From positions 62,001-126,000 of the forward strand of contig CANJLL010000002.1 in the NCBI GenBank assembly GCA_947475545.1: a stretch of DNA of 64,000 nucleotides, given 5' to 3'. Origin of the DNA: Chloroflexota bacterium (GTDB taxonomy: Bacteria; Chloroflexota; Limnocylindria; Limnocylindrales; CSP1-4). The stretch's first letter is position 1. Every line of letters starts with the position of its first letter. The notes beneath the pieces are model-generated. The model was not told the DNA's origin and did no database searches. It saw nothing but the letters and a program-made list of their open reading frames with translations. Below are positions 36,510 to 56,606 of the stretch, piece by piece. The position numbers and the translations under genes were made by a program.

Positions 36510-37682
36510 ATGCTGTCTTTCAATCCCACCAGGAGGTCGAATCCGGCCGGGAGGTGGGTTCGGGTTGGCCAGGGCGAGATGGCGTACGAGGCATTCGTGC
36601 CTGCGCCGCTGCCCCCGGAGCTCGCCCTGTCGAAGGAGGTCGTCCGACTGCTCTCGGACGCCGACCGGGCCCTGGGAGAGCTGAGCGGCCTCGCACGCAT
36701 GCTCCCGAACGCCGACCTCCTGATCAACCCGTTCACCCGAAAGGAAGCGGTCCTCTCCTCCAGGATCGAAGGCACCCAGGCGACGATCACGGACCTGTAC
36801 GACTTCGAGGCTGACGATGGACCGTCCAGACGCCGGCCCGAGAGCCCGGACCTCCGCGAGATCCGGAACTACATGGCCGCCCTGACCTACGGCTTGGGCC
36901 GCACCGAGACACTGCCACTGAGCGGCCGGTTCATCGGGGAGCTCCACGCGCGGCTCATGCAGGGAGTCCGCGGACAGGAGCGGAGCCCCGGCGAGTACCG
37001 CACATCGCAGAACTGGATCGGGGCGCCTGGGTGCCTGCTGCCAGAGGCGTCGTATGTCCCGCCGCCGCCGCCCGAGATGCGCGACGCGATGGCGTCGTTG
37101 GAGACGTACCTCCACGACGAGTCGGACCCGTACCCGCCCTTGGTCAAGCTGGGCCTCATCCACGCCCAGTTCGAGATGATCCACCCGTTCCTGGACGGCA
37201 ACGCGCGGATCGGGCGGCTCTTGATGACCCTCTTGCTGGTGCACTGGCAGGTGTTGCCGTTGCCGCTCCTCTACCTGAGTGCGTACTTCGAGGAGAACCG
37301 CGAGGCGTACTACGCGCGCCTCCGCGCCGTCGGCTCGGACGGCGACTGGGCCGGATGGCTGCGCTTCTTCCTGGCCGGCGTCGCGATCCAGTCTCGCGAC
37401 GCCACGGCACGGGCCACGCGGCTCCAGGATCTCCAGGGCGCCTGGCGCGAAGCCGTCATGGCTGCTCGATCGTCGGCGCTCCTGATCAGGCTTGTCGACT
37501 TCCTGTTCCTCTCTCCGGTCATCACGGTGCCGCGCGTCCGAGCACTGCTCGGGGTGACGTACCCGGCAGCCAGGGCGAACATCGACAAGCTGGTCCAGGC
37601 GGGCATCCTGGAGCCGTTCGGGCCGCAGACCTACGGGCGGAAGTACTGGGCGCCGGAGATTCTCCGCGCGATCGGGTCGTAG
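36510..37682 (+). CDS. Fic-family protein with variant catalytic loop
   Basis: A 390-residue Fic protein, predicted to transfer AMP or another nucleotide to proteins. The N-terminus NPAGRWVRV...AFVPAPLPPEL is typical. LSSRIEGTQAT carries the N-terminal inhibitory motif (S/T)xxxE(G/N), making it a class II, self-inhibited enzyme. The active loop reads HPFLDGNARIGR: the catalytic His and final Arg are present but the second Gly of GNGR is Ala. A C-terminal winged-helix (PRVRALLGVTYPAARANIDKLVQAGIL) follows. ATG 36510 keeps the conserved N-terminus; ATG 36579 is an alternative. No separate antitoxin is adjacent, as expected for class II. Confidence 0.88.
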   Translation: MLSFNPTRRSNPAGRWVRVGQGEMAYEAFVPAPLPPELALSKEVVRLLSDADRALGELSGLARMLPNADLLINPFTRKEAVLSSRIEGTQATITDLYDFEADDGPSRRRPESPDLREIRNYMAALTYGLGRTETLPLSGRFIGELHARLMQGVRGQERSPGEYRTSQNWIGAPGCLLPEASYVPPPPPEMRDAMASLETYLHDESDPYPPLVKLGLIHAQFEMIHPFLDGNARIGRLLMTLLLVHWQVLPLPLLYLSAYFEENREAYYARLRAVGSDGDWAGWLRFFLAGVAIQSRDATARATRLQDLQGAWREAVMAARSSALLIRLVDFLFLSPVITVPRVRALLGVTYPAARANIDKLVQAGILEPFGPQTYGRKYWAPEILRAIGS

Positions 37683-39258: not shown

Positions 39259-39665
39259 CGTCAGCGATCCAGGCCGCGATAGGTGCTCTCGGACCGGCGC
39301 GCCACCTTCAGGACCACGACCAGTCCGGCAGCCTCATCAACGAGGTAGACGACCCGGAGGTCGCCCATTCGAATCCTCCAGAAGTCAGTACCAGCCACCT
39401 TGACGACGCCCGCCGGGCGCGGGTCGATGCCCAGCGCCAGGATGGGGCCCCGCAGCCGCGCGGCGTCGCCGGGCGGCAGCCGGCGGAGCTGGCGTTGAGC
39501 TGCGGGCGCGAGCTCGATTCGAAAGCGAGCCTCGCTCACTCCCGGTCGGCGCCGTAGCTTGCCCGGGTCTCCGCGGCCAGCAGCCCGAAGAACTCGTCGG
39601 CGGTCGCCCCGCCGTCGCGGCGGTACTCGGCCAGGGCCGCCTCCGCCGACGCGCGGTCCTCCCGC
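39259..39665. repeat. Duplicated toxin-antitoxin segment, copy 2
   Basis: Same-orientation near copy of 26657-27062. Here the similarity ends inside the antitoxin gene, which continues intact, so this copy is the likely parent or retained the ancestral structure. Confidence 0.75.
39261..39539 (-). CDS. RelE/ParE-family toxin, copy 2
   Basis: A 92-residue RelE-like toxin (RIELAPAAQRQLRRLPPGDA, DFWRIRMGDLRVVYLVDEA). GTG 39539 overlaps the antitoxin stop as GTGA. Nearly the same protein is encoded at 26659. Here both partners and the promoter are complete, so this is the functional version. Confidence 0.88.
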   Translation of the reverse strand: MSEARFRIELAPAAQRQLRRLPPGDAARLRGPILALGIDPRPAGVVKVAGTDFWRIRMGDLRVVYLVDEAAGLVVVLKVARRSESTYRGLDR

Positions 39666-41890: not shown

Positions 41891-42613
41891 TCAGAGCACC
41901 GGTCGGGGGCCCCCTGACATCTCACGATCGTGTGCCCATCGATCCCAGTCCGACTCGATCTCGACGAATGGATGGGGACTGACGACAGCGCCGGATCGTG
42001 CAGCACCAGCGACCTTCGCCGCCGCCAGCACGAGTTCCTCCACCTGGTCCCAGGTTCCTGCTCTTGGCCCCGCCAGGTCGCGGTTCGTCGAGTTGGAAAA
42101 GACGATCACCCTGGCACCCGACGCCCGTAGCGCCCCGACGTTCGCCGGACTGTCCTCGACATAGATGTCGGCGCCGACCGCGCGCTTGTCACGCATGAAG
42201 CAGAGATCCCAATACGGGATGCCGTGCTTGTCGAGCCAGCTGGCGGTCTGGTAGATCGCCTCGGCGTGGAAGTACGGGATGTACAGGCGGTGCGTGATGA
42301 TCCGGATGCGGATGCCCTTGGCCGAGAGCCGACGGAGGGACGGGCCGGCACCCGAGATGGGCTTTGCATCACGGAAGAGTTCGCGCTGCGTCACCGCCCA
42401 GCGGTGGAGCCGATCGTAGTCGCCTTCTCCGAAGCCCCACTCCCTGAGATCGAAGCTGACCTCGTCGGTGAGCTCGGCTGGAGCCTTCCCCAGCCACTCG
42501 GCGGCCAGCTCCTTGATCGATCCGAAGAAGTCGGCGCACACGCCATCGAGATCGACGCCGAAGACGAAGCCGTCGTCGACTCCGCGCACCGCCGCCGGCT
42601 GTTCAGGGCTCAT
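41891..42613 (-). CDS. HAD-family 5'(3')-deoxyribonucleotidase-like phosphatase
   Basis: A 240-residue HAD protein. VFGVDLDGVCADFFGSIKEL is motif I with the cap typical of NT5C nucleotidases; IRIRIITHRL provides the Thr/His region of motif II, CFMRDKRAVGADIYVEDSPANV the Lys and acidic residues of motifs III/IV. Substrate is probably a deoxynucleoside monophosphate or similar. Its ATG overlaps the end of the DUF2075 gene by 11 nt, so the two are cotranscribed; nucleotide depletion as an effector activity is a possibility but not demonstrated. Confidence 0.8.
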   Translation of the reverse strand: MSPEQPAAVRGVDDGFVFGVDLDGVCADFFGSIKELAAEWLGKAPAELTDEVSFDLREWGFGEGDYDRLHRWAVTQRELFRDAKPISGAGPSLRRLSAKGIRIRIITHRLYIPYFHAEAIYQTASWLDKHGIPYWDLCFMRDKRAVGADIYVEDSPANVGALRASGARVIVFSNSTNRDLAGPRAGTWDQVEELVLAAAKVAGAARSGAVVSPHPFVEIESDWDRWAHDREMSGGPRPVL

Positions 42614-44534
42614 CCGTCGACTCGTAGGCGGCCGGCGTCTCCGCGGCCTTGCGGACCGCTGACCTCGGTCGCTCCGTCCGGCTGAGGAAGAAGTCGCGCG
42701 TCGGCGTGTCCATGAAGTACACGTAGCACCCGCGGAGCCCTCTCGTCAGGAGGACGCGGTACGTGCTCTTGACGAAGGCCATGAACTCATCGTCAGAGAC
42801 CCCGCGGCGCACGATGCGGTCGCGGGATTCATGAGGCTGGCCGACCCATCCTCCGCCCGCCGGTCGATAGACAAGGTCGGGGCCCACGATGACGCCGACG
42901 TAGTCGAATTCGAAGCCCTGGGCGGTGTAGACACAGCCCACTTGCTCGATGCCGCCCTTGTCACTCGCCCAGAAGTCCGACTTCGGGATGCCGGGCCCAA
43001 GCCGGCTCGCCTCGGCCTTGGCGTTCCAGGGCATCGACCAGTCCCCAACTTTGACGTCGCCGACGAGGTTGCCAGCCGGGTCCGGATCGGACCAGGGCCA
43101 GCAGAAGCCAGCCACCAGGCGTGCGGTTGCGCCTTCCGCGGCTCGCAGCCGGATCAGCCGATCGAGCTCCGGCGCGGCATCGACGATCCGGAAGTCAAAG
43201 TCGTCGTCCATCGGCCAGAGCACTTGGGGTGTCCGGGCAAGCTCCAGGGTGTTGTCGACCCACCGGATGAACGAATCCGAGCCGTTGGAGCGGAACTGCG
43301 CCTGGAGCTCGAACTCGCGGACCTCGAGGCCCCGCTTGGCTGCAGTCTCCCAAATGAGATCGGTGCTGCCGACCTCGCCGGGGCGCACGACCTGCAGGTC
43401 ATCGATGAAGAAGACCGAAACCCGGGTCGAATCGAGGATGTCGTCGATCTGCGACTTGCCCGTTCGCGCCTTCGCCGGCGTGAAGCGGCTCGTGCTGATC
43501 GTGCGAATGCGGTGTGCCTCGTCCAGGACGACGACGTCCAGGGGCTCGGTGACAGTAGCGGTGTCGCGGAAGTACTTGAAGAGCGCCCCGGCTCGCGTGC
43601 CAACGAGCTTGCGCAGGTTCTCGGTGAAGGCCTTCGAGCCCGTCACGTGGAGCGTCTGGACGCCCAGCGACGCAAGCTCCGCTATGAGGTTGACGGCCAT
43701 CACGGACTTCCCCGTGCCGGGTCCCCCCGCGACGATGAAGGCCACCGGGTGCTTGTTCTGGCCGGCGGCCTTGACCTCGTCCATGATCGCGTTGTATGCG
43801 ACCTGCTGTTCGTCGAGCAGCGTGAAGACCGGCTCGTTCCGGATGACCCGCGCGACGTGGTCCAAGAGACGCTTGTGCGGGCGGAAGGTCGAGTTCGCCA
43901 CCCGGTTCAGGATTGAGCCGTCATCCGGGCCGGCCACGCGCGCATCCAGGTAGGTGGCCAAGGCGTTCACCTGATCGCCCGTGAAGGATGGGTTGGTGGC
44001 GAGGAGGGGCGAGAAGCCCGCGCCGAAGAGCGGCGACGTGGGGTCGTGCTTGGCGAAATGGAGGTAGGCGCAAGCATCGAGGGCAATCGTGCCTTCGGAG
44101 AAGGCGACGTGGGTGTCCTGGAGATACCGCTGGTACTGGGCGACCTGGCGCGAGGGGTGGAGGTGGTCGATGTCGCGACCACCCATGTTCACGACGACGC
44201 AATCGGTGATGTTCGAGTGCTGGACGGCCGTCCACTGCTTCAGCTCAACGATGACCGCGGCATCGCCAACCTGCGGGTTTGACCCCGTGATCATCACGTC
44301 GAGCCGCTTGGAGGACAGGGGAAGCTTGAGCTCGACGAGAACGCCCTGGTCACGGAGGTCGGCGACCTGCAGGACGTTGGCCATGGCCGACAGCGAGTTG
44401 CGCCACGACTGGATCTCGGACAACCCGGGCTTGTAGCGGAACTCCTGGAAGAACCGGTCGGTCAGGAGCGTGGCCATGCGGTTCTGTGCCGCGTCGGCCA
44501 GGAACTGGTCGCTGGTGCCCTGGTAGAGGTGCAT
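42603..44534 (-). CDS. DUF2075 superfamily 1 helicase with N-terminal nuclease-like domain
   Basis: A 643-residue protein. The first 200 residues contain RLDVMITGSN...AAVIVELKQWTAVQ, a restriction-endonuclease-like D...E-x-K pattern. The ATPase part shows Walker A AGGPGTGKSVMA (about residue 265), VVVLDEAHRI, VFFIDDLQVV, the LQAQFRSNGSDSF motif and, at the end, GCVYTAQGFEFDYVGVI and YRVLLTRGLRGCYVYF, all DUF2075 motifs. Members occur in antiphage loci. The gene has a weak start context at ATG 44534 and is preceded by over 400 bp without genes. A combined defence role with the HAD gene is inferred from overlap. Confidence 0.82.
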   Translation of the reverse strand: MHLYQGTSDQFLADAAQNRMATLLTDRFFQEFRYKPGLSEIQSWRNSLSAMANVLQVADLRDQGVLVELKLPLSSKRLDVMITGSNPQVGDAAVIVELKQWTAVQHSNITDCVVVNMGGRDIDHLHPSRQVAQYQRYLQDTHVAFSEGTIALDACAYLHFAKHDPTSPLFGAGFSPLLATNPSFTGDQVNALATYLDARVAGPDDGSILNRVANSTFRPHKRLLDHVARVIRNEPVFTLLDEQQVAYNAIMDEVKAAGQNKHPVAFIVAGGPGTGKSVMAVNLIAELASLGVQTLHVTGSKAFTENLRKLVGTRAGALFKYFRDTATVTEPLDVVVLDEAHRIRTISTSRFTPAKARTGKSQIDDILDSTRVSVFFIDDLQVVRPGEVGSTDLIWETAAKRGLEVREFELQAQFRSNGSDSFIRWVDNTLELARTPQVLWPMDDDFDFRIVDAAPELDRLIRLRAAEGATARLVAGFCWPWSDPDPAGNLVGDVKVGDWSMPWNAKAEASRLGPGIPKSDFWASDKGGIEQVGCVYTAQGFEFDYVGVIVGPDLVYRPAGGGWVGQPHESRDRIVRRGVSDDEFMAFVKSTYRVLLTRGLRGCYVYFMDTPTRDFFLSRTERPRSAVRKAAETPAAYESTDEP

Positions 44535-44956
44535 CGGGTAGGTTCAACCAGCTTCGTGTAGCTGCGCTCACTGTCTTGGAGGCACCGAGGCAGCGCCTAA
44601 CCGACTATACGCGGGCAGTGTCCGCGCGCAGCACCGGCGGCTGCCGCATCACGTGGAGACAAGGGTCGAAGCCCAGCGCAGCCCAGAAGCCCCAAGGACC
44701 CTGGGTGTGCGTGTGGGTGGACAAGGTTGGCCAGGGCGATCCGCCGCTATTCCACCTACACGTGTTGGGCGGCGATGGACGGCGGAGCCTCCTGGAGTGA
44801 GCCTGTGAGAAGCGCTACTACGGAGGGATCGTTCCTGGTCGCGAGGTACCTCGAGGCGCCGGGGATCAGACGCTACTCGGAGACGAGGCGCTCGACAGGA
44901 GTTGAGAACTGGGCCGGCGTCACTAGAACGGCCCTGCCCTCGCGCCACCGAGGTGC
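44535..44956. other. Gene-free stretch upstream of the DUF2075 gene
   Basis: About 420 bp in which neither strand shows a recognisable product, Shine-Dalgarno-supported frame or RNA. Sequence is less GC-rich than neighbours in places. It should hold the promoter of the DUF2075-HAD operon, but I could not define a -10/-35 pair. Confidence 0.4.
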
Positions 44957-45970
44957 TCAATCGCGCCAGCGGAATCCGAGTCCGGCGAGGGCGCCGACCA
45001 GCTCGCCGCAGCGAATTCCTGGCTCCGGCACCAGCTCACCAAAGAGACGGCGGGCCTCCGTGACCGGCCCAGCGGACGGCTCGAAGCCCTCTGTGAAGCC
45101 CTCGTAGTAGACGAGTTGGTCCACCCCCGCGAGGGAGGCCGCGGCCAGCTGGAGGACAGCCATGAGCACGCGATCACCGCGGAAGGCTCCGCCGCCCCAG
45201 TGCCCGGTGTGGATGATGGTCGCAGCGGCCCCAACGGTCACTCTCGCCTCGACCACCGCCGCACGGAACCCGCTGTACGCCGAGGAGAGCGTCCATTCGA
45301 TCTGGTCACGCGTGTACGGCGCACCCCGATGGCTTTGGGCTGCGATCGCCAGGATGTTCGAGATGGTGGGCGGGACGAGCCGTGTGGCTGCCTTGGCCAC
45401 GACGTCGGGCGTCGCGGCGCGGAAGCTCCGGCTGTAGAGACCATCCGGGCGACCGGCAGCAGCGTCCGGCTGGGTGTCGAGGCGCACGCGACGTTCTGCC
45501 CCGCGGACGAGGCCGGGTGCCGGGCGCTCGTCGACGACCGTCCGCGCGATCGCGCCCTCGGCCAAGAGCGCCTCGCGGACCGATGCGAGCACGGGATGCT
45601 CAGCAACCTGGAGCTCATCCTGGGCTGCTGAGCCCCCGGCATACCAGCCGAACAAGGGCTGAGCGGCGAAGTTGAGGTGCCAGACGAATGCCCCCGGCAG
45701 GGCGGGCTCCGACGCGTAGTCGAAGAAGCCCGGGGCCTGGCTGAGGACTCCCGGCGCCAGCGCGAGAAGTCGTTCGGGGAGCAGCAGCTCCGGCCAGCGC
45801 GAGTACTGGATCTGGCCGGCGATCGTGGAGCCGGGCGGGCAGGCGATTTCGAACACGACCTGCTTGTTCGAGTTGGTCCAGCGAGGCGGGTGGGCGGCCA
45901 TCAGTCGCGCGGCATCCCAGGAGCGCCGCTCGACAGGAGCCTCCGCGGTCAGGTCGTCAGAACTCCGCAC
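44957..45970 (-). CDS. Poly(ADP-ribose) glycohydrolase-like (PARG-type macrodomain) protein
   Basis: A 337-residue protein with a PARG-like ending: THIIHTGHWGGGAFRGD is seen as IIHTGHWGGGAFRGDRVL, then MAVLQLAAASLAGVDQLVYY, matching the PARG pattern TG-x-WGCGAFGGD-x(2)-(L/M)-K-A-x-x-Q-x-x-A-A. Earlier, HLNFAAQPLFGWYAGGSAAQ followed by DELQVAEHPVL replaces the catalytic GGG...QEE block, keeping the Gln and the last Glu. It probably removes ADP-ribose or processes a related nucleotide. GTG 45970 follows GGGAG. It is separated from, but on the same strand as, the neighbouring defence-like genes. Confidence 0.7.
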   Translation of the reverse strand: MRSSDDLTAEAPVERRSWDAARLMAAHPPRWTNSNKQVVFEIACPPGSTIAGQIQYSRWPELLLPERLLALAPGVLSQAPGFFDYASEPALPGAFVWHLNFAAQPLFGWYAGGSAAQDELQVAEHPVLASVREALLAEGAIARTVVDERPAPGLVRGAERRVRLDTQPDAAAGRPDGLYSRSFRAATPDVVAKAATRLVPPTISNILAIAAQSHRGAPYTRDQIEWTLSSAYSGFRAAVVEARVTVGAAATIIHTGHWGGGAFRGDRVLMAVLQLAAASLAGVDQLVYYEGFTEGFEPSAGPVTEARRLFGELVPEPGIRCGELVGALAGLGFRWRD

Positions 45971-46049: not shown

Positions 46050-49000
46050 TCACCCCCCGCCCGCCGCCGCCAGCGCGTCCGCCACCGTCCGGAGGCGAGG
46101 CAGCTGCAGTTCCAGGTCCGGCGTCAGCGGGACCTCGGGGTGGCAGGTGAAGTACAGGACCTGGTGGCGGGCGGCCAGGTCCGCGATGGACTTGGCGGCC
46201 AGCGCGGCCCGTTCGTTGTCAAAGTTCACGAGGATGTCGTCCATGACGATGGGCAGCGGCTCGGCGTTCTGGGCAAAGTGCTCCAGCAGGCCAAAGCGGA
46301 TGGCCAGGTAGAGCTGCTGGGCGGTGCCGGTGGACAGGTCTTCGATCGCCACGATGGTCCCGTCGCCGTGCTCCACGGCCTGCACCTGGCTGCCAACCGG
46401 CGCCACGATCCGGCGATAGCGGCCCGCCGTCCACTCGCGGAAGTACGCCTCGGCCGTCTTGAACACCGCCGGCCGGTGCTCCGCTTCGTAGGCGCTCCGG
46501 GCGCTGCTCAGCACGTGGCGGGCCACGCTGTAGGTGGCCCACTCCACGGCCTTGGCATCCAGCCGGGCCTGCAGGTCCTCGCCGGCCTGGCGGTCGGTGG
46601 TGGCGGCCACGTCCTTCTCCATCCGATCCACGGCGTCCCGCAGCTCCCCTACCCGCTCGTTCAGGCCGGTCAGTCGCGCCTCCAGCTCCTCGCTGGTGAT
46701 CCGGCACTCGGCATACGCCGCCTCTGCGCGGCCGACGTCGTCCAGGGATTCCAGCTCCTCGCGAAGCCGCTCCAGCGCCTGCCCGGGACCGGACAGGGTC
46801 TGGAGGTTGGTGGTGCCCGCGTCAACCACCGCGTCAAGCTGCCGGGCCCGGTCGGAGATGGCGATGCGATCGCGCAGCGCAACGCTGTCCGGGACGCCCT
46901 GCTGCAGGAGCAGATCGGCGAGGGCCCCCTGGGCCGCATCGGCGTCGTCCTGGGCCCGGCGCCCCGCCTCCTCCAGCCGTCCTGCCGTCCGGAGCGCCTC
47001 GTCGCGCTGGCCGGCGGCGGCCACGGCGGTGTCACGAAGGCCCGCCAGCTGGGCCAGGATGCGCTCCAGCCCGGGCTGATCCTGCGGCGTGACGCCCCCG
47101 ATGGGCACGTCCAGCTCCCCGGCCTGGCCAACCACCAGCTCAAAGAACCGGGTGTGCTCGTCGCTGAGCTGGTCCGCCAGGACCCGGCTTGCCTCCCGAG
47201 TGCGCATGGGCTGCTTGGCGGCGGTGACGGCCGCCACGACGCGCGCGGCGGTCTCGCAGTCGATGCCGGGGTTCAGCCCATGGCCGGCAAGCCACTGGGC
47301 CCACTCCCCCTGCGCGGCGTCCTGCGCCGTGCGCATCTCCGCCACGCGCTCCGAGGCCTCTCCCAGCGCCTGCCGCCGGGCGGCGGCCTGGGTGCGGACG
47401 TCCGCGACCTGCACCGCGAGCCCCTGGGTCCGCGCGGCCCGAGCGCGGGCCTCGGCCAGCTGGCGTCCGAGCGCGTCGATCCCATCCGGGGTCGCACCGT
47501 CCGAGAGCCCCGCCGCTCGAGCGGCCTCCGCCACGCCGGCCTCGGCGGTGGCTGCGGCCACGTCCTGGCCTGCGGCGGCGACGAGGAGTGCCTCGGCCTC
47601 TTCGGCCAGGCGGACCGCTCGATCGCAGTGGGCAACCAGGTCGGCCAGCGCGGCGGCATCCGCGTCGGGCGCCAGCCCAACGGCCGCAGCCAACCCGGCC
47701 CGCTGCGCGCGGAGCCGGGCGATGGGCTCGGCCATCGCCACCGGTGATCCGGCGACCAACGGCTCCCCCTGGGGCCTGGTGCGCTGCCAGACCAGCACGG
47801 CACCCGCCAGGCCCAGGACCAGCGCACCCGCGGCCAGCAGTGGGCTCCCCAGCGCCGCCAGAACAACGGCAACCAGGATGCCGCCCAGCCCGATGACCAA
47901 CGGAACCCAGGAGGGGGCTGCCGGCAATGGTTGCAGGACCGTGGGCGCCGGCAACGACGCCAGCATCTCCTCGCGCGCCATGACGTCCTGGAGCGACCGG
48001 ACATCCCTGGCAACCTCGCGCCACGGACGCCCGGCCGGGCTGGCGGGAACCGTGGCCGCCTTCGCGTCGGCGGTCGCCCTGGCCTGGGCGGCGACGCCGA
48101 TCGCGTTGCTCCGGACCGCGACAGCCGTTCGCAGGTGCTCCAGGGCAGGCTGGAGGCGCTCGATGGGCGGCAGCGCGGCCGCCTCGTCCTTGATGGCCTG
48201 GATCTCGCCGTCGAGTCGCTCGGCGTCCCGCCCCAGCGTGGCGACGGCCCGTTCCAGCTCGGCGCGCGCTGCCTCCGCCCCGGCCAGTGCCTTGTCCGCC
48301 CGATCCAGCAGGAGGCGGAAGTGGCCGGTGATCGCCGTCTCCACCGCGACGGAGTCGTCGAACGACTCGACCCGCCCCTCGGTCCAGTCCGGACCCAGCC
48401 GGCGCAGCGCCTCGCTCAGCTCCCGCTTCTGGGTCTCCACGTCCCGCGTGACGGTCTCGAGCTGCTTGCTCCGCTCGCGATCCCGGATGGCGTCTCGGGC
48501 CAGCTCCTCCAGGGTCGCACGGTGATCCAGCACGACGGGATCCACGCGGATTCCCTCGATGGTCCGGCGCTGAACGGCGAGCTCCTCGGTGGCCTGGACC
48601 AGCCGATCCTGCGCTTCCTGGCTCCGGGCCTCGACCCTGACGAGGTCCGTGACGACGCCGGCATCCAGGATCGACACGGTGCCCAGCTGGGCCCGCTCCG
48701 CCATGGCGTCTCGCACCTGGATCCACGACGGCCAGGCCTTGATGTGGCGGTCATGCCGGCGCAGATCCTCGGCGCTGGCCCGCTGCTCGTCCATGGCCCG
48801 CTGGCGCCCCTGCTCGGCGTCCTTGAGGGACCGGACCGTCTCGGCGTACTCCTCCGGGAGATCGCGGCCCAGGCGCGCATTGACCTCCTCCAGCTTGCGG
48901 AGGAGGCCGTTGATGACGGGGGTGCTGCCGCCACTCTTGAACAGCTCCGCCGCCTTGGCGCCCAGGCGGTTTTCCGCGTCGATGGCCGACACCGACCCCA

Positions 49001-49451
49001 GGCCCAGGCCGGCGCCGTAGATCCGGGCGGAGACCTGGTCGTTCGTCAGGCTCCCGAAGGCCGCGAGCTCCGCCAGGCCAAAGGCGAAGACGTTCTGATA
49101 GAGCGTCAAGTCGACGCCCTGCAGCAGGCGGGAAAGCTCCTCCGAACCACGGTCGACGCCGTCCTCGCCCAGCACCTTGACCACACCCTGGCCGCCGCGC
49201 TCGCCGTGGCGCTCGATTCTCATGAGCCGGCCATCGGCCATGCGGACGGTCAGGCGCCCCCCGCGCCGGCCCCCTGCCATGGCGGCGTAGCGCCTGGTGT
49301 CGAAGCCAAACAGCATGGCGCGAACAAACGCCAGCAGCGATGTCTTGCCCGCCTCGTTCAGCCCACGCACGAGTGTGAGTCCGGGTGCCGGCACCAGCGT
49401 CTTCTGGCTGATGAGGCCAAACCCGTCGACATGGATCTCTTCGATGCGCAT
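46050..49451 (-). CDS. YhaN/SbcC-like SMC-family ATPase with central membrane hairpin
   Basis: A 1133-residue AAA/SMC-type protein. It begins with MRIEEIHVDGFGLISQKTLV and Walker A LVRGLNEAGKTSLLAFVRAMLFGF (GxNEAGKT as in YhaN), and ends with the signature EDLSTGTAQQLYLAIRFGLLE, Walker B PLPIVMDDILVNFD and the His switch CHPE. Long coiled-coil arms lie between. In the middle, SWVPLVIGLGGILVAVVLAALG and LLAAGALVLGLAGAVLVW are two membrane segments, as in YhaN. Only 5 bp separate it from the phosphoesterase gene. It probably works with that enzyme in DNA end processing near the membrane. Confidence 0.9.
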   Translation of the reverse strand: MRIEEIHVDGFGLISQKTLVPAPGLTLVRGLNEAGKTSLLAFVRAMLFGFDTRRYAAMAGGRRGGRLTVRMADGRLMRIERHGERGGQGVVKVLGEDGVDRGSEELSRLLQGVDLTLYQNVFAFGLAELAAFGSLTNDQVSARIYGAGLGLGSVSAIDAENRLGAKAAELFKSGGSTPVINGLLRKLEEVNARLGRDLPEEYAETVRSLKDAEQGRQRAMDEQRASAEDLRRHDRHIKAWPSWIQVRDAMAERAQLGTVSILDAGVVTDLVRVEARSQEAQDRLVQATEELAVQRRTIEGIRVDPVVLDHRATLEELARDAIRDRERSKQLETVTRDVETQKRELSEALRRLGPDWTEGRVESFDDSVAVETAITGHFRLLLDRADKALAGAEAARAELERAVATLGRDAERLDGEIQAIKDEAAALPPIERLQPALEHLRTAVAVRSNAIGVAAQARATADAKAATVPASPAGRPWREVARDVRSLQDVMAREEMLASLPAPTVLQPLPAAPSWVPLVIGLGGILVAVVLAALGSPLLAAGALVLGLAGAVLVWQRTRPQGEPLVAGSPVAMAEPIARLRAQRAGLAAAVGLAPDADAAALADLVAHCDRAVRLAEEAEALLVAAAGQDVAAATAEAGVAEAARAAGLSDGATPDGIDALGRQLAEARARAARTQGLAVQVADVRTQAAARRQALGEASERVAEMRTAQDAAQGEWAQWLAGHGLNPGIDCETAARVVAAVTAAKQPMRTREASRVLADQLSDEHTRFFELVVGQAGELDVPIGGVTPQDQPGLERILAQLAGLRDTAVAAAGQRDEALRTAGRLEEAGRRAQDDADAAQGALADLLLQQGVPDSVALRDRIAISDRARQLDAVVDAGTTNLQTLSGPGQALERLREELESLDDVGRAEAAYAECRITSEELEARLTGLNERVGELRDAVDRMEKDVAATTDRQAGEDLQARLDAKAVEWATYSVARHVLSSARSAYEAEHRPAVFKTAEAYFREWTAGRYRRIVAPVGSQVQAVEHGDGTIVAIEDLSTGTAQQLYLAIRFGLLEHFAQNAEPLPIVMDDILVNFDNERAALAAKSIADLAARHQVLYFTCHPEVPLTPDLELQLPRLRTVADALAAAGGG

Positions 49452-49456
49452 GGCCC

Positions 49457-50770
49457 CTACCCCTCGTCCGCCAGGCGGTCCACGACAAGCGCCTCGGCGG
49501 CGTCCAGCACCGCCACCAAGTCGGCCCCGTGCGGGCGGTGCGCCCTGAGGGGGGACCGCGCGCGGGTATTCGCGTACAGGTCGTCGAGCACCCTGTCCAG
49601 CCCGCCCGCCCGCCCCTCGGCCGCGTCGGCCGTCCCACCGCCGGCGCCACCGGCGTCGCTCGCGAGCAGATCCGCTCGGGTGGTCGCGAACAGTCGCAGC
49701 ACGCCCCCGAGGAAGTCATCCGCCTGCCGCCGGGCCTCGATGTCCATCTCGGGCCGCGTGGCGTTGCGCAGGGACTCCACCCAGGCAAAGGGGGAGGCCG
49801 ATCCCAGGTTCTCCCGGCTGACCTGGAGGATGCCGTTGAGCGTCCCCGGCTGCAGCAGCTCCCGGTGCATGGGCCCGCGGCCGGTGAGGGTGACGCGCGC
49901 GACCACCGACCGCTCGGCCGTGGAACGCGCCTGGTCCACCGCGCCGGTCACCGCGTCCGCGATCCCCTCCTCGGTGGTGATCCCGGCGATGGCGACGGAC
50001 AGGAGCTGCCAGCGAACCTCGTCGACGGCCTTGAACTCCGGCAGGATCTCGCCGGAGTCCTTGACGGTCACCAGGTAGCAGCCACGAGGCTCCGTCTCGC
50101 CGGGGTCGCGGCCCTGCGGGTTGCCGCAGTAGACGGCGGTGGGGCGCTCGGCCGAGAGGACCTGGTGTCGATGGATGTGGCCCAGCGCCCAGTAGTCCAT
50201 CCCGGACCGGCGCAGGTCGTCCAGCGTGCACGGGGCGTAGTTGCCTGCCGAGAGGTCCCCGCCGACGTTGGCGTGGAGCAGCCCCACGGCGAACGGGGCG
50301 TCGGCGTCCTTGCTGAACCTGGCGGCAAGGTTGTCCTTGACGTCCCGGACGCGGTAGCCGATGCCGTAGATGCGGGCGATCTCCTGGCCGTCGCGCACGA
50401 CCGGCATGGCCTCCACCCGGCTGGTGCTGAAGCGATGGGCGAGCTCCGGCCAGGTGACCGCCGGGATGCGACCGCTCTCGTGGTCGTGGTTGCCGGTGAC
50501 GACGAACGACGGGATCCCGGCATCGGCCAGGCGCCGGAGTCCGTCCCGGAAGTGCACCTGGCCCTGCAGCGTCCGGTTGGAGTTCTCGAACGCATCGCCG
50601 GCGACCAGGAAGAAGTCCACGCGCTCCTCCAGGGCCAGGTCGACGACGCGCCGCCACGCGGTCAGGGTTGAGTCGCGGAGGATGGCGCCGATGGCTGGCG
50701 GCACGTCGGTGCTGATGCCAACAAATGGGCTGTCCAGGTGCAGGTCGCCTGTGTGCAGAAACCGGAACAC
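49457..50770 (-). CDS. SbcD/YhaM-like metallophosphoesterase (DNA repair exonuclease)
   Basis: A 437-residue calcineurin-like phosphoesterase. All metal motifs are seen: FLHTGDLHLDSP, FFLVAGDAFENSNR, FVVTGNHDHE, VGLLHANVGG and WALGHIHRHQ. Together they match the Mre11/SbcD group. A C-terminal 120-residue region includes coiled-coil/capping parts and a Gly/Ala-rich stretch. GTG 50770 is the family start. It precedes the YhaN-like gene by 5 bp, forming a Mre11-Rad50-like pair. A gap of 173 bp separates it from the AAA+ gene upstream on the same strand. Confidence 0.9.
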   Translation of the reverse strand: MFRFLHTGDLHLDSPFVGISTDVPPAIGAILRDSTLTAWRRVVDLALEERVDFFLVAGDAFENSNRTLQGQVHFRDGLRRLADAGIPSFVVTGNHDHESGRIPAVTWPELAHRFSTSRVEAMPVVRDGQEIARIYGIGYRVRDVKDNLAARFSKDADAPFAVGLLHANVGGDLSAGNYAPCTLDDLRRSGMDYWALGHIHRHQVLSAERPTAVYCGNPQGRDPGETEPRGCYLVTVKDSGEILPEFKAVDEVRWQLLSVAIAGITTEEGIADAVTGAVDQARSTAERSVVARVTLTGRGPMHRELLQPGTLNGILQVSRENLGSASPFAWVESLRNATRPEMDIEARRQADDFLGGVLRLFATTRADLLASDAGGAGGGTADAAEGRAGGLDRVLDDLYANTRARSPLRAHRPHGADLVAVLDAAEALVVDRLADEG

Positions 50771-50943
50771 GTCAATCCCTCCCCGGGTGCGATACGACCT
50801 TCACGAGACCACCCGCGCCGGGCACATTGCCGATGACCGGCTCGCAGCCGCGCGGCCCGCAGGCGCGCGGCCCGGCCCAACGCTGGCCGCCACGCAACCC
50901 GAAGGCGCGTCCGGGCCCGCCCCCACGCTGGCCGCCGCGCCGC
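50771..50943. other. GC-repeat-rich spacer inside the four-gene run
   Basis: Contains imperfect repeats of CGCGGCCC/GCAGGCGCG and ACGCTGGCCGCC. No gene is seen. The spacer could carry an internal promoter for the phosphoesterase, but no box is convincing. Confidence 0.3.
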
Positions 50944-52185
50944 TCAGCTGCTTGGAGCACGAAACCCGATCCGGCGCTCCAGCGCCGAGCGCTCCCGGTC
51001 CACGGTGGGCAGGTCCGCCAACGTCATCTCCGCGAGCTCCGTGGTGTCGATCCGGTCGTCCTGCAGCGCCCGCTGCGCCATGTTGGCGAAGGCCTGCTCG
51101 AACGTGGAGCGGACGAAGCGGGCGTTGCCGAAGTTGGCGGTCTGGCGCGCCTCGCCGAACAGGGAGGCCAGCCGGTCCGTCGCGTCGGGCGTCACCTGGA
51201 TCTGCGCCTGCCCGGCCAGTGCCAGGAAGATCTGGACCAGCTCGGGGGTGTCGTAGTCGGGGAAGTCGATGTAATGGGTGAAGCGGCTCCGGAGGCCCGG
51301 GTTGGAGTCGATGAAGTCACGCATCAGCTCTGGATAGCCGGCAACGATGACGGTGAGGTCCTGGCGGTGGTCCTCCATCAGCTTGACCAGCTCGGCGATG
51401 GCCTCGCCGCCAAAGTCCACCCGGTCGGAGCCGGCGAGCGAATACGCCTCGTCGATGAACAGCACGCCGCCGAGGGAGCGCTTCACCACGTCCTGCACCT
51501 TCAGCGCGGTCTGGCCGACGTAGCCGGCGACCAGGTCGGCCCGGGAGGCCTCCACGAGATGGCCCCGACTGGCGATGCCGATGGTGTTGTACAGGCGCGC
51601 AATCAGCCGGGCCACGGTGGTCTTGCCGGTCCCGGGCTCCCCGGTGAAGACCACGTGACGGCTTGGGCTCACCTCCGGCAGGCCGTTGGCACGGCGTTCG
51701 GCGTTCATGCGCTGCACGGCGAGCAGGCGGTGCACGGCGACCTTGACGGGCCCAAGCCCAACCAGGGCGTCCAGCTCGGCCAGCACCTGAGCGGTGGTCT
51801 CGCCGGCGACCGACGTGTGGGGATCGATCCTGGGCTCGGCGACCGCCGCCTGGTCCGCGGCCGGGGCCGATTCGACGGCGACCGAACCGCCGCCCGTAGC
51901 CCCCAGCAGCCGGCGACCCAGGTCGGCGCACACGGCGATGGCCTCGTCGGTGGACGTCAGCTTGTCCAGCTCTTGCTGCGCCAGCGCGGAGACCGTGGGG
52001 GTGACGGCAGCCGTGCCGGCCGGCTCCAGCAGGTGCCGGACCGCGGCCTTGTCGATGCCCGGCGGCACGCGCCCGTCCAGCGCGACCACGAGCCCCCAGA
52101 GCACGTGGCGCAGCTCCACCTCCGCGTGCGAGTGCGACTTGGCGCCGGCGATAGCTTCGTCCTGGACCTGCTCCCGGATGCTCAT
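50944..52185 (-). CDS. CbxX/CfqX (EccA-like) AAA+ ATPase
   Basis: A 413-residue AAA+ protein. The N-terminal 100 residues (VQDEAIAGAKSHSHAEVELRHVLWGL) resemble a Clp-N-like helical domain. The ATPase has Walker A TGEPGTGKTT (about 182-190), Walker B VLFIDEAYSL (about 241-250), sensor GYPELMRDFIDSNPGLRSRF and GNARFVRSTFEQAF. Such EccA-like ATPases remodel protein complexes. Its start overlaps the TY-Chap gene stop as ATGA, so the chaperone-like protein and the ATPase are made together. The downstream SbcD/YhaN pair on the same strand suggests a joint system. Confidence 0.9.
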   Translation of the reverse strand: MSIREQVQDEAIAGAKSHSHAEVELRHVLWGLVVALDGRVPPGIDKAAVRHLLEPAGTAAVTPTVSALAQQELDKLTSTDEAIAVCADLGRRLLGATGGGSVAVESAPAADQAAVAEPRIDPHTSVAGETTAQVLAELDALVGLGPVKVAVHRLLAVQRMNAERRANGLPEVSPSRHVVFTGEPGTGKTTVARLIARLYNTIGIASRGHLVEASRADLVAGYVGQTALKVQDVVKRSLGGVLFIDEAYSLAGSDRVDFGGEAIAELVKLMEDHRQDLTVIVAGYPELMRDFIDSNPGLRSRFTHYIDFPDYDTPELVQIFLALAGQAQIQVTPDATDRLASLFGEARQTANFGNARFVRSTFEQAFANMAQRALQDDRIDTTELAEMTLADLPTVDRERSALERRIGFRAPSS

Positions 52186-52643
52186 GAAGCGGGATCGGGG
52201 TCGTGGTCCGTGTAGCGCTTGCCGCCGAAGCGGTCGTGCACGATCTCGTCGAACTCGTCGGCGGTGGACCCGATGGTGTAGACGGCGGTGATCATCTCGG
52301 CGGGATCGATGAAGTCGCCGAGCAGCGTGTGGTCGTACACCAGGAACAGCGTCCCGCCCTCTTCCTCGAACACGGTGACGCCGCCGAAGAGCCGGGCCCG
52401 GCCGTCGATGGCGGCCCAGCGGAACAGCTCCGGGGTTGGCGCCACCTTGCGCCCGAGCGGCGCCGACACGCGCACGATGGACCGCGGGTTCCCGTCGTTG
52501 TCGGGGGTCCACTCCTTGACGGTGATGAAGACCGCGGTGCTCCCGAGGTCCACCCTGAAGCCGCCGTCCTTGGTCAGGGTGACCTCGAACTCACCCACCA
52601 GGATCCGCTGGACCCGCTGGCTGGTGACATCAACTGTGGCCAT
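52182..52643 (-). CDS. TY-Chap/YbjN-like small protein
   Basis: A 153-residue protein: VQRILVGEFEVTLTKDGGFRVD, STAVFITVKEW, IVRVSAPLGRKV, TLFLVYDHTLLGDFIDPAEM and VYTIGSTADEFDEIVHDRFGG follow the T3SS-chaperone/YbjN strand-helix pattern, with the C-terminal DEFDEI...FGG seen in actinobacterial TY-Chap proteins. ATG 52643 has GGGGG about 7 nt upstream. It is the first gene of the run and may present substrates to the AAA+ protein. A similar domain is at the C-terminus of the protein at 34.5 kb. Confidence 0.65.
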   Translation of the reverse strand: MATVDVTSQRVQRILVGEFEVTLTKDGGFRVDLGSTAVFITVKEWTPDNDGNPRSIVRVSAPLGRKVAPTPELFRWAAIDGRARLFGGVTVFEEEGGTLFLVYDHTLLGDFIDPAEMITAVYTIGSTADEFDEIVHDRFGGKRYTDHDPDPAS

Positions 52644-52773: not shown

Positions 52774-53052
52774 GTGTGGAGACGATACAAATGGGAGGCG
52801 GAGAAGGAGCGGAACAACGTTGCCATCCATGGCGTGTCGTTTGGGGAGGCAGCGACCGTGCCCGACGGCCTCCTGTCTCGGTGGTTCAGCGACAAGGCCC
52901 ACTCCCGCGGCGACGACCGTTGGCTGGTCATCAGCCCTTCCTCCCTTGGGCGGCTCCTCCTCGTGGTAGTCTCCGAAGGCGGCCCAGAGCCGCGGATCAT
53001 CTCCGCATGGCGCGCCACGAAGCGCGAACGACGTGAATACGAAGGTCGTTGA
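52774..53052 (+). CDS. brnT: BrnT-family toxin
   Basis: A 92-residue RelE-fold RNase toxin of the BrnT family: YKWEAEKERNNVAIHGVSFGEAATV, then DDRWLVISPSSLGRLLLVVV and PRIISAWRATKRERREYE match the BrnT consensus, including the terminal R-A-T-x-R-E-R-x-x-Y-E. GTG 52774 lies 6 nt after TACCGT, so a leaderless message is likely. The following gene overlaps it by 20 nt but is not a recognisable BrnA. Confidence 0.88.
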   Translation: MWRRYKWEAEKERNNVAIHGVSFGEAATVPDGLLSRWFSDKAHSRGDDRWLVISPSSLGRLLLVVVSEGGPEPRIISAWRATKRERREYEGR

Positions 53053-53452
53053 ACGCAAGGTTCGGTCCGAGGTCGATGACGAACGCCCGGACACGAGCCA
53101 CCTCGACTGGAGCAAGGCCGAGATCGGCCGGCGCGCTCGCAGGCCTGGCGAGAAGACCGAGATCTTCGTCGATGGTGCGGTCGGGTACCAGCTACGCCTG
53201 ATCCCATCGAACAAGGTGCTCGCCGGGTTCGAGTCGACGCTTGAGGCTTGGCCGGTCATCATCGCCACGATCGAGCGCGGTCGTTCGGCGCGCACGCTCG
53301 CGTTCGATGTCATCCGGGCCGATGGCCGAGTCAGCCTGGTGTCGGCCGGCCCTCGTCTCGAGATGTGGGCACGACACAACGACGGTGCACCCAACCCGTA
53401 TGGCGACCTGTGGGCCGTGCCGGAGCGCCGGGTCGCCGAGAGCATCGGCTGA
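53033..53452 (+). CDS. Unrecognised 139-residue protein in antitoxin position after BrnT
   Basis: Starts with GTG 53033 inside the end of brnT. The sequence VERKVRSEVDDERPDTSHLD, WSKAEIGRRARRPGEK and TEIFVDGAVGYQLRLI is charged and unfamiliar; the C-terminal part (LVSAGPRLEMWARHNDG, NPYGDLWAVPERR) forms short strands. BrnA antitoxins are usually about 90 residues with an RHH at the end, which I do not see here. Its position and overlap make an antitoxin role likely, possibly a new partner type; or the BrnA-like start was fused to another protein. Confidence 0.45.
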   Translation: MNTKVVERKVRSEVDDERPDTSHLDWSKAEIGRRARRPGEKTEIFVDGAVGYQLRLIPSNKVLAGFESTLEAWPVIIATIERGRSARTLAFDVIRADGRVSLVSAGPRLEMWARHNDGAPNPYGDLWAVPERRVAESIG

Positions 53453-53519
53453 CCATCTCGGCACGGCGAGTTGAGTACCAGTCGCCGCTCATCCGCTCGA
53501 ACCGGGACGTCGCTCGGGC

Positions 53520-53547
53520 TTGACGCTTGCGTCCAATGCACTATCGT
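53520..53547 (+). promoter_or_regulatory. Promoter of the HTH/unknown pair
   Basis: TTGACG (53520-53525), a 16-nt spacer and TATCGT (53542-53547), about 33 nt upstream of GTG 53581, which has its own AGGAG. This is one of the few conventional promoters in the accessory region. Confidence 0.55.
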
Positions 53548-53580
53548 TCGTTTGTACGCACATGACGCAGGAGTGATCCC

Positions 53581-53847
53581 GTGACGGAGCCGCGCTGGTT
53601 CACCATCAAGGAGGCCGCCGAGCGGCTCCGCGTCAGCCACGACACGATCAGCCGGATGATCGCGCGGGACGAGTTGCCGGCCGTCCGCGTATCCGAACGG
53701 ATCGTCCGCATCCCGGCCCCAGCCCTGGCTCGCTACGAGAGCGGGGCGCCGCTCGAGGGAAGGTCCGTCGTGAGACGACGCGTCCGCACCGGTGTCGCCT
53801 TCGGTGCCGGCGAGAAGGTCCCCGTCCTCGACGCCGTCGAGCGCTGA
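53581..53847 (+). CDS. Excisionase-type helix-turn-helix protein
   Basis: An 88-residue DNA-binding protein: WFTIKEAAERLRVSHDTISRMI and ARDELPAVRVSERIVRIPAPALARY is the MerR/excisionase helix-turn-helix with the usual wing. The tail VRRRVRTGVAFGAGEKVPVLDAV is basic. GTG 53581 follows AGGAG. It is 3 nt from the next gene. It may be an antitoxin-like regulator rather than a phage excisionase, as no integrase is adjacent. Confidence 0.8.
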   Translation: MTEPRWFTIKEAAERLRVSHDTISRMIARDELPAVRVSERIVRIPAPALARYESGAPLEGRSVVRRRVRTGVAFGAGEKVPVLDAVER

Positions 53848-53850
53848 GTC

Positions 53851-54342
53851 ATGCGCCTGCGCGGCGCCGCTGTCGATGCATACGTGGGCCAGCTCGCGGA
53901 GCTGCTCGAACGCTTCGGCGTCGTGCTGCAGCGGCCTGCCCCCGGCGAGCCGATCGAGGTACTCGAGGCCGCTGACGGCTCGCTCAGCTTCGAGCTCGTC
54001 GGCGCACTGCCGGACGGGAGGCAGCCGGTCCTGGCCACGCTCGAGGTGCGCGAGGAGTTCCGCGCCCTGGACAGCGGGCTCTTCGAGCGGAGCCGCTACG
54101 AGTTCGAGATCGTCGATCGCGAACGCGACTTCCGGCGCGCATTTCACCTTCATTCCGCGGAGTGGTTCCAGGGACGCCACCTCGTCCTGGTGCACGAGCA
54201 CTGCGAGCGGCCGATTGGGCGCGCTCGATGCGATCACTTCGAGGGCCGACCGATCCGGGATGGCTTCGCCGGCATCGTCACACTGATGGACGCCTGGACC
54301 GGCGACCAGCCCGACTGCGACACATTGCGCTGCCTCGACTGA
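53851..54342 (+). CDS. Unrecognised 163-residue protein paired with HTH gene
   Basis: Starts 3 nt after the HTH gene. The sequence has regular strands: GSLSFELVGALPDGRQPVLAT, LEVREEFRALD, SGLFERSRYEFEIVDRERDF, FHLHSAEWFQGRHLVLVHEH, and DHFEGRPIRDGFAGIVTLMD. His/Asp-rich segments (FHLHS, VHEHCE) could form a metal or catalytic site. I recall similar two-gene pairs (HTH plus this type) in actinobacteria but cannot name the family with confidence. Candidate toxin-antitoxin or regulator-target pair. Confidence 0.45.
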   Translation: MRLRGAAVDAYVGQLAELLERFGVVLQRPAPGEPIEVLEAADGSLSFELVGALPDGRQPVLATLEVREEFRALDSGLFERSRYEFEIVDRERDFRRAFHLHSAEWFQGRHLVLVHEHCERPIGRARCDHFEGRPIRDGFAGIVTLMDAWTGDQPDCDTLRCLD

Positions 54343-54360
54343 AGGCCCACGAGCCGCAGA

Positions 54361-54504
54361 CTCACAGGGCTCCTGTCGCCGGTCAGCCTGCGGGATGCCG
54401 AGGGATATACTCCGCTCGAAATCGAGCGCATCCGACGGATCGTGACCGGCAGTCGGAACATGATGCTGAGGCGCTGGGATGAGTGCTTCGATCACGACGC
54501 CTGA
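54361..54504 (+). pseudogene. DUF4160 C-terminal remnant
   Basis: The frame GYTPLEIERIRRIVTGSRNM plus MLRRWDECFDH matches the last 40 residues of DUF4160 proteins (x-E-L-x-x-I-x-x-I-V-x-x-N-x-x-x-L-L-x-x-W-x-x-x-F-x-H). No N-terminus is present. It overlaps the start of DUF2442 by 26 nt, the normal gene order of this pair. Confidence 0.55.
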
Positions 54505-54733
54505 CACCCGCCCCCGCGCAACGGCGGCCAACATCGACGCTGGCCGCCTGCGCGTCACCCTGACCGACGGACGCGACGTCGGGGTCCCCACCACGTGGTA
54601 CCCATGGCTCCACGACGCCACCGGCGAGCAGCAGGCGGACATCACGATCATCGAGGGCGGCCTGGGGCTCTGGTGGGAGCGCCTGGACGACGGCCTCTCG
54701 GTGCCGGCCCTGCTCAGCCAGCCGCACGTCTGA
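54479..54733 (+). CDS. DUF2442 protein
   Basis: An 84-residue complete DUF2442 protein: GRLRVTLTDGRDVGVPTTWYPWL is the hallmark, followed by ADITIIEGGLGLWWERLDDGL and VPALL. DUF2442 proteins are found next to DUF4160 and may be part of toxin-antitoxin-like modules; the DUF4160 partner here is a remnant. This subtype (Y-P-W-L) differs from the one at 33.7 kb. Confidence 0.75.
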   Translation: MSASITTPDTRPRATAANIDAGRLRVTLTDGRDVGVPTTWYPWLHDATGEQQADITIIEGGLGLWWERLDDGLSVPALLSQPHV

Positions 54734-54815
54734 GGGGCGGCTTCGAGCGAGCGCACTGCCAAACGCGCGCCGCCGGGCGCCGCCACATCCCCCGGATCCC
54801 GGTACTGATCAGGAG

Positions 54816-56606
54816 TCACGACCCAATCTTGCCGAGGTGCTGTGCCACCTCTGGTGTCACGACCAGGACCACGTGCTGGCGCGCGCGGCTGATTCCCACG
54901 TACAGGAGCCGGTCCATGTACTTGTCGTCGGCGCGCAGCTCGGTCAGCACGATCACGGGCCGCTCCAGGCCCTTGAAGCGGCGGATGGAGTCGCACAGGA
55001 TAGCGTCGTCGGGCTGGGCCGGGACTTGGTCGGCGGCGAGCCCCGTGGGTCGGCCGGCGTCGTCCACCTGGCCGTTCCAGAGCACCTCGTTGCCGAACTG
55101 CCGGTGACGCCAGGCGTCGGACTTCTCGAGGGAGCCCCCGGTCAGGACGGCAATCTCCCACGGCCGGACGCCCTCATCGCGGCGCAGACGGTGGAGCACC
55201 ACCCGGAGGGCCTCGATCGTCTCGGCCCCCGGTGCCGCCGTGATGATCTCGGGCGCGCGCCCGTCCGTGCGCAGCGCGTCGGCCGCCAGCTCGCCGTTCG
55301 AGAACCGCTGCACCAGCGCGTGGATGGGCTGCGCATTTCGGCAGTTGAGGTCCAGGTCGGACGGGTTGAGGCCCAGCTGGTCCACGACGTCGGGGCGGTA
55401 CAGGGACTGGGCGGGGTCGTGGAAGACGTAGAAGGGGTCAACCTTGGAATCCACCAGCAGGAGGTCCAGCGCGGTCAGCCAGTCGGCTTCAAAGTCCTGG
55501 CCCTCGTCCACCACGATCGCCTGGTAGCGTCCGCCGACCTTCCCGATGGCCTCCAGCAGCGCGGCCGACAGGGTGTCGTTCCACCACGCCTGGGGCAGCG
55601 GCTCGGGGCGAGCAGGCAGGGTGCCCGCCTCGCGCGCGAGGTCCTCACAGAGCTGGTGGAAGGTGGAGACGTGGATCCTGGCCGCCGCGCCGCCGGCGAG
55701 CCCCGCCGCGCCGCCGCCCAGCGCGGGCGCCCCCGCGACCACCTCCTCGGCCAGCATCCGCGCCAGCGGCTGGTTGAAGCAGACCAGGAGCGTCTGGAAG
55801 CCTTCGGCCGCCAGGCGGCGCGCCTTCTCCAGCGCCAGCATCGTCTTTCCGGTCCCGGCCCCGCCGCGGATCTCGGCCCGCCGCTGCCGGCGCAGGTCGC
55901 GCAGCACGTGGTGTTGCTGCCGGGTCAGGTCCGCCACCTCACGCTCGCCCGACTCGATCTCCGAGCGCAGCAGCGAGCGCAGCCGAACCGGTTCGTCGAA
56001 GAAGGCCGCCAGGAGGTCCACGCCGTGCTGGCCCGGCGGCCGAAGGTGGGCACTCTCCCCCGCCCACAGGTCGAAGGCGCGATCGACCGCGCGCCGGGTC
56101 GCGGCCGGGTCGGCCTCGTCCAGCCGCGCGCCGTCGAAGATGAGGTCGGGGTTCACGTCGAGGCCCAGCAGCCGGAGGCGATTGCCGGCGCTGGCCAGGT
56201 CCACGTCGGGGAAGGCCACAGCGTGCCCCGTGATCGGGTTCCAGGCCGCGGGCGCGTCCGGGAGGTCGCGCAGCTTCCGGAGCAGCGCGTGCATGTTCAG
56301 GCTGGCCTGCTGGAAGGGCGAGGGATCCAGCTGGTGGTGGCCGGCCCACCAGCGGCCGTGCTCGTCGCGGGCGATCTCGCCGGCCTTGACCTCGATGACC
56401 AGGAAGCCCAGGTCGGGGTGGGCGATGACAACGTCGGCCTCGCCGTCGCGAATCCCCCGGTGGTCCGCGGTCCGGCCCAGCCAGTGGACGTTGGGGAAGA
56501 CGCGGTACTCGGGAGGCAGCGCGGCGCGCAGCCGCTTCCGGACCTCGCGCTCGGCGCGCTCGCCCTCGGTCTCGTCAGCCCCGTGGGCGCGGGACATCGA
56601 TGCCAT
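54816..56606 (-). CDS. NERD-domain nuclease fused to UvrD-like helicase
   Basis: A 596-residue protein. An N-terminal NERD domain (GEADVVIAHPDLGFLVIEVKAGE with the E-x-K nuclease residues) leads into a superfamily 1 helicase: QQHHVLRDLRRQRRAEIRGGAGTGKTMLALE is the Q motif and Walker A, TLLVCFNQPLARML, HVSTFHQLC, QAIVVDEGQDFEADW (motif II), FYVFHDPAQSLY, NCRNAQPI, and RRFKGLERPVIVLTEL with YVGISRARQHVVLV at the end. NERD-helicases occur in repair and defence loci. ATG 56606 follows GGGAGGGCAGGGGC. No partner is cotranscribed. Confidence 0.88.
   Translation of the reverse strand: MASMSRAHGADETEGERAEREVRKRLRAALPPEYRVFPNVHWLGRTADHRGIRDGEADVVIAHPDLGFLVIEVKAGEIARDEHGRWWAGHHQLDPSPFQQASLNMHALLRKLRDLPDAPAAWNPITGHAVAFPDVDLASAGNRLRLLGLDVNPDLIFDGARLDEADPAATRRAVDRAFDLWAGESAHLRPPGQHGVDLLAAFFDEPVRLRSLLRSEIESGEREVADLTRQQHHVLRDLRRQRRAEIRGGAGTGKTMLALEKARRLAAEGFQTLLVCFNQPLARMLAEEVVAGAPALGGGAAGLAGGAAARIHVSTFHQLCEDLAREAGTLPARPEPLPQAWWNDTLSAALLEAIGKVGGRYQAIVVDEGQDFEADWLTALDLLLVDSKVDPFYVFHDPAQSLYRPDVVDQLGLNPSDLDLNCRNAQPIHALVQRFSNGELAADALRTDGRAPEIITAAPGAETIEALRVVLHRLRRDEGVRPWEIAVLTGGSLEKSDAWRHRQFGNEVLWNGQVDDAGRPTGLAADQVPAQPDDAILCDSIRRFKGLERPVIVLTELRADDKYMDRLLYVGISRARQHVVLVVTPEVAQHLGKIGS

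Follow-up and report, generated by a model that had tools for sequence, protein, structure and literature searches.

Four genes in close succession on the minus strand of a Chloroflexota genome (assembly GCA_947475545.1, order Limnocylindrales) raise the question of whether such a run encodes a single machine or two neighbouring ones. The genes occupy positions 46050-52643 of the 64,000-nucleotide stretch of contig CANJLL010000002.1 that was analysed as a whole (hereafter the window). In the direction of transcription they encode a small TY-Chap1 protein with the YbjN / type III secretion chaperone fold (52182-52643; 153 aa), a CbxX/SpoVK-type AAA+ ATPase (50944-52185; 413 aa), the Mre11/SbcD-like phosphoesterase SbcF, or YhaO (49457-50770; 437 aa, GTG start), and the Rad50/SMC-like ABC ATPase SbcE, or YhaN, with a membrane hairpin (46050-49451; 1133 aa). 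A first-pass annotation had combined the four products into one DNA-surveillance machine; its coordinates and family assignments all hold. The open reading frames (ORFs) are intact, the ATGA overlap of the TY-Chap1 and AAA+ genes is exact at 52182-52185, and the SbcF and SbcE genes lie exactly 5 bp apart (49452-49456). Between the two pairs is a gap of 173 bp (50771-50943), in which terminator-like sites, a sigma70-like promoter and an unusual RNA fold were sought and nothing above chance was found; Rfam and tRNA scans gave zero matches. We assign a probability of about 0.82 to the reading that the run consists of two modules of two genes each, independent of one another, that adjoin in one Chloroflexota genus and between which no functional link was seen.

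This reading rests mainly on the distribution of the two pairs among relatives, for which a set of 101 genomes was used, comprising the window genome (G000) and 100 relatives, among them the congener G001. TY-Chap1 and AAA+ adjoin SbcF-SbcE only in the two genomes of the window's genus, and SbcF-SbcE stands without them alongside in all 14 extra-genus relatives whose upstream side is visible. G028, a member of the same family, carries the two pairs on different contigs, with unrelated genes on the side of each expected junction. The converse separation was found in a scan for TY-Chap1 orthologs that covered an 84,980-species genome collection, where the close orthologs among the matches listed belonged only to the congener and to three other metagenome-assembled genomes; TY-Chap1 and AAA+ are intact in these three, and SbcEF does not adjoin them in any (3/3). 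L099 and L100 have the pair without SbcEF, and in the distant genome G435 a homologous AAA+ gene adjoins TY-Chap1 in a 16-kb locus where SbcEF was not found. G012 encodes an AAA+ ortholog (53%) with neither a TY-Chap1 ortholog nor a close SbcEF, and among 300 other genomes of the phylum the nuclease was present in 19 and a TY-Chap1 ortholog in none. Even within the genus the space between the pairs varies, since an alignment places a 57-bp indel between the 173 bp of the window and the 116 bp of the congener. The first-pass annotation had proposed a neighbourhood survey for co-occurrence of all four genes; the survey finds the pairs apart in relatives, which is the outcome that the annotation had itself set against a single machine.

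The downstream pair is SbcEF (YhaO/YhaN), a Mre11-Rad50-like pair that has already been described and is not new, contrary to what had been supposed. SbcF (PF00149, 1e-13) retains the five Mre11 motifs (DLHLD, GDAF, GNHD, H166 and GHIH), and SbcE, which matches AAA_27 (PF13514, 6e-18), retains Walker A, the LSxG signature and Walker B. A CxxC zinc hook was not found in the SbcE sequence, which instead carries two adjacent hydrophobic helices at about residues 516-554 (hydropathy peaks at 516 and 536). One or both helices of such a membrane hairpin were detected in almost every Chloroflexota SbcE that was examined. With its motifs intact and this hairpin in SbcE, the earlier description of a membrane-anchored Mre11-Rad50-like pair is upheld. 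The window SbcF is 32% identical to a YhaO-type protein of Enterococcus and 39% identical to a Deinococcus homolog; the Enterococcus protein scores 145 bits against it, as compared with 63 bits against the SbcD-like gene of the same Chloroflexota genome, which has a separate SbcCD-like pair (G000:C2:276712-278003). SbcEF is in use as an established name (PMC6452273), and two papers give the name SbcE to Bacillus YhaN, tie it to double-strand-break repair and list yhaONM among the SOS genes (PMC3896406, PMC4205851).

Gene order supports the pairing of the two proteins well beyond the window. An SbcF ortholog is present in 17 of the 101 genomes, with the SbcE gene directly next to it in all 17, and the same adjacency recurs in seven distant Chloroflexota loci, in one Deinococcus plasmid, and in Enterococcus faecalis, where an exonuclease, an AAA ATPase and an HD-domain protein follow the order yhaO-yhaN-yhaM. 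We propose that SbcF-SbcE would work near the membrane, on aberrant DNA or on DNA ends. The hairpin in the middle of SbcE, expected at the apex of the coiled coil, takes the place of the zinc hook; by analogy with Bacillus, the role of the pair may lie in double-strand-break repair. Elsewhere SbcEF occurs in settings of defence, next to type I restriction genes (G020), next to type III restriction genes (G054), and within a BREX operon (G128). The last of these has the order BrxA, BrxB, BrxC, PglX, SbcF, SbcE, PglZ, BrxL (L131:6270-11023, L093:1037-11480, L132:177-4527), and no membrane hairpin is predicted in its inserted SbcE. A 2026 survey of BREX does not mention Mre11 or SbcC (PMC12839542).

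The upstream pair is of a different kind. TY-Chap1 scores 42.3 bits (7e-11) against its profile PF22551, whose cut-off is 27, and the elements of its AlphaFold2 model follow each other as a-b-b-b-a-b-b-a, a topology also reported for DR1245, YbjN and type III secretion chaperones. A Foldseek comparison of the model with the PDB returned 2plg (2e-5) as well as SicP, CesT, DR1245 and YbjN; a plasmid search with the window protein gave zero matches. The AAA+ protein matches PF00004 (2e-17) and PF17866 (AAA_lid_6, 2e-13), while its best NCBIfam models, SpoVK, CbbX and EccA, all stay far below their equivalog cut-offs. Its N-domain (residues 1-95) is helical in the model, with predicted local distance difference test values mostly of 79-94, and is possibly Clp_N-like as judged from that model; a Pfam search of the protein did not match the Clp_N domain. 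Near the C-terminus, the AAA+ orthologs of the family share an invariant IGFRA motif (window 50944-50975, alignment A4), which is missing in the distant G435. A resemblance of this motif to the IGF loops that dock onto ClpP is a speculation.

What ties TY-Chap1 to the AAA+ protein is a recurrent adjacency. Stand-alone TY-Chap1 genes of the family adjoin an AAA+ gene in nine of nine cases, five of them CbxX-type and four Clp/Hsp100-type (double-AAA); three of the latter four are joined through a one-base TGATG junction and the fourth is separated by a 29-bp gap. Phylum-wide, stand-alone TY-Chap1 genes above the cut-off have an AAA+ neighbour in six of eight genera. The probability of such adjacency by chance was put at ~6e-13 (6/7 genera), a rough order of magnitude only, as the AAA+ frequency was hand-picked and one genus too few was counted. 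In G435, which belongs to a distant family, a full-length AAA+ homolog (41%, residues 1-392) lies 100 bp from TY-Chap1 in the opposite order. Common descent of the arrangement is unlikely because two unrelated types of AAA+ and both gene orders are involved. The earlier claim that a chaperone-like protein and a remodelling ATPase form a pair is thus sustained by the adjacency, the chaperone fold and the AAA+ class, and since TY-Chap1 recurs beside AAA+ proteins of two unrelated kinds, it is most likely a client-binding substrate adaptor of its AAA+ neighbour. We infer that TY-Chap1 would bind client polypeptides that are modified or partly unfolded, in the manner of type III secretion chaperones, and would pass them to the AAA+ ring, possibly via the helical N-domain, for unfolding or release; both this mechanism and the nature of the client are put forward as suggestions. 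A literature search for a described link between YbjN and AAA+ adaptors found none, which is weak evidence given its limited coverage.

Several observations weigh against two unconnected modules so conceived. The four-gene order is kept in both congeners, contiguous and on one strand (95-99% identical). All three genomes of the 101-genome set that carry TY-Chap1 and AAA+ also have SbcEF at some place in the genome (hypergeometric p 0.004 by genome, 0.06 by genus), which may reflect a loose link between the pairs, and one Deinococcus plasmid has a TY-Chap-like gene upstream of SbcEF, separated from it by a single WYL gene. As for the adaptor itself, the stand-alone TY-Chap1 genes of G289 and G371 have no AAA+ neighbour, and the Clp_N resemblance of the AAA+ N-domain consists of Foldseek alignments to ClpC (~470-509 columns) together with a non-significant sequence match to the ClpC N-terminal domain (E 0.55). 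The contiguity, the co-occurrence and the Deinococcus plasmid could all be accommodated by one four-protein DNA-surveillance complex, in which SbcEF would detect or cut DNA at the membrane and TY-Chap1/AAA+ would remodel the protein-DNA complex. The co-occurrence in three genomes can, however, be explained by descent among a few related genomes, and the survey, in which no relative from outside the genus has the pairs together, strongly disfavours such a complex. The contrast between nuclease and TY-Chap1 counts across the phylum and the indel in the gap between the pairs also count against it. We consider it very improbable.

The genes that follow SbcE invite a longer reading. A gene for a PARG-type ADP-ribose glycohydrolase (44957-45970, minus strand; 337 aa; PF05028, 1e-12; motifs GGSAAQDE and TGHWGGGAF) begins 79 bp downstream, followed on the same strand by a Schlafen-type SLFN-g3 helicase (42603-44534) and, continuing the run beyond it, an NT5C 5'-nucleotidase (41891-42589); the order of these three (window 41891-45970) is kept in the congener at 91-97%. 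Published ARG-centric systems, which counter ADP-ribose, combine ARG/PARG-like domains with TY-Chap1, calcineurin-like phosphatases, HAD 5'-nucleotidases and helicases (PMC9503650, section 3.8). The window resembles them in its same-strand TY-Chap1 and PARG within 8 kb and in its nucleotidase and helicase genes, so that the whole run could be a conflict system of PARG, TY-Chap1, phosphoesterase, helicase and 5'-nucleotidase which strips off ADP-ribose marks made by phages and employs SbcEF as its nuclease effector; a PARG homolog less than 8 kb from SbcEF in G054 agrees with this. The published core, however, mostly pairs ARG with rhodanese-type phosphatases and not with SbcEF, and over 42% of published ARG systems contain a Nudix or WYL regulator (PMC9503650), neither of which was found among the same-strand genes scanned. 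Nor is the linkage conserved. Eight further relatives have PARG (weak matches in two), and its position there bears no constant relation to TY-Chap1 or SbcEF; PARG and TY-Chap1 are linked only in the window's genus, G028 having TY-Chap1 without PARG and other relatives PARG without a close TY-Chap1 ortholog. As fixed partners, PARG and the SLFN-g3 helicase were rejected, each being found in relatives without adjoining TY-Chap1 or SbcEF. The run was not filed as an ARG system because these two genes are unlinked in relatives and a Nudix or WYL regulator is lacking, and we regard this reading as quite unlikely. Also unlikely is the proposal that TY-Chap1 proteins form a dedicated adaptor class for AAA+ unfoldases of the CbxX and Clp/Hsp100 types outside secretion, and that in this genus the pair would extract proteins that are damaged or ADP-ribosylated, some of them stalled on DNA, and leave the remaining work to SbcEF and PARG. 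A metabolic role for the upstream pair, with the AAA+ protein as the Rubisco activase CbbX, takes its appeal from CbbX being the best solved-structure match (3e-61), but the protein reaches 226 bits against a CbbX equivalog cut-off of 459, Rubisco genes do not adjoin it, and what are probably the family's true CbbX genes belong to a different operon and have no such N-domain; we hold this role to be extremely improbable.

Beyond the two modules, the surroundings of the run abound in defence-type and repair-type genes. On its upstream side (52774-56597), small plus-strand ORFs accompany a gene (54816-56597) whose NERD-UvrD product is matched in PADLOC by NERD-helicase defence proteins; the four proteins of the run themselves gave no convincing match in PADLOC-DB 2.0, where weak generic AAA/SMC matches only were returned (best 3e-8). 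A further gene at 34517-35980, divergent from a Fic gene (36579-37682), had been suggested as a possible additional member. It does encode a TY-Chap protein, with an extra N-terminal region and a TY-Chap3-TY-Chap1 build; as a machine subunit it was rejected, since proteins of this build have unrelated neighbours in other genera. Two near-identical small ORFs of 92 aa, at 26659-26937 and 39261-39539 (~12.6 kb apart), start with VSEAR[YF]RIELAPAAQRQLRRLPPGDAARLRG and are possibly duplicated RelE/ParE-type toxins. On Deinococcus plasmids (L125:1122-13889, L126, L127, L129, L130), a cassette of PD-(D/E)XK nuclease, UvrD helicase, TY-Chap/YbjN-like and WYL genes is repeated, and it is followed each time by a different defence-type module: SbcEF, McrBC with BREX nearby, BREX, or DUF499/DUF1156. 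In the D. deserti annotation, several ORFs cover the helicase region, and there is no WYL gene after it.

Altogether, the reading of two adjoining modules means that the four-protein DNA machine is dropped as a false lead, and it adds a clean example of membrane-anchored SbcEF from outside the Firmicutes. The part worth following is the pairing of TY-Chap1 with AAA+, which serves as a testable replacement lead. Its occurrence beside two unrelated kinds of AAA+ suggests that the fold of type III secretion chaperones also serves free-living bacteria as an adaptor for unfoldases.

Compared with known systems, the downstream module stands closest to Bacillus YhaN/YhaO, with which it shares adjacent nuclease and ATPase genes, the nuclease first, Mre11- and Rad50-type motifs, and a hairpin that replaces the hook. 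The Enterococcus pair has the same gene order at 26-32% identity. SbcCD, the bacterial Mre11-Rad50, belongs to the same enzyme class, whereas the window pair has the membrane hairpin and no CxxC hook. The window differs from yhaONM in that a gene for the HD exoribonuclease YhaM does not adjoin. Moreover, yhaONM is listed as SOS-regulated, whereas no GAAC-N4-GTTC LexA-type box lies at or near 46-53 kb, the nearest on the contig being at window 31837, although the clade's own LexA box is not established. Elsewhere in the genome (L133:1603-1648; G000:C3:146602-146647), a dinB-like gene is followed by two such boxes at a distance of 34 bp from each other, which are repeated in G001 and G043 and may form a LexA-regulated promoter of the clade.

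The upstream module combines familiar parts in a different manner. Its AAA+ protein shares the AAA and AAA_lid_6 core with CbbX, SpoVK and EccA, and departs from them in having its own N-domain and C-terminal tail, in falling below every equivalog cut-off, and in having TY-Chap1 as its partner. TY-Chap1, in turn, has the fold and Pfam family of YbjN, DR1245 and the type III secretion chaperones. The partner of the latter is the injectisome ATPase, whereas that of the window protein is a CbxX-type AAA+.

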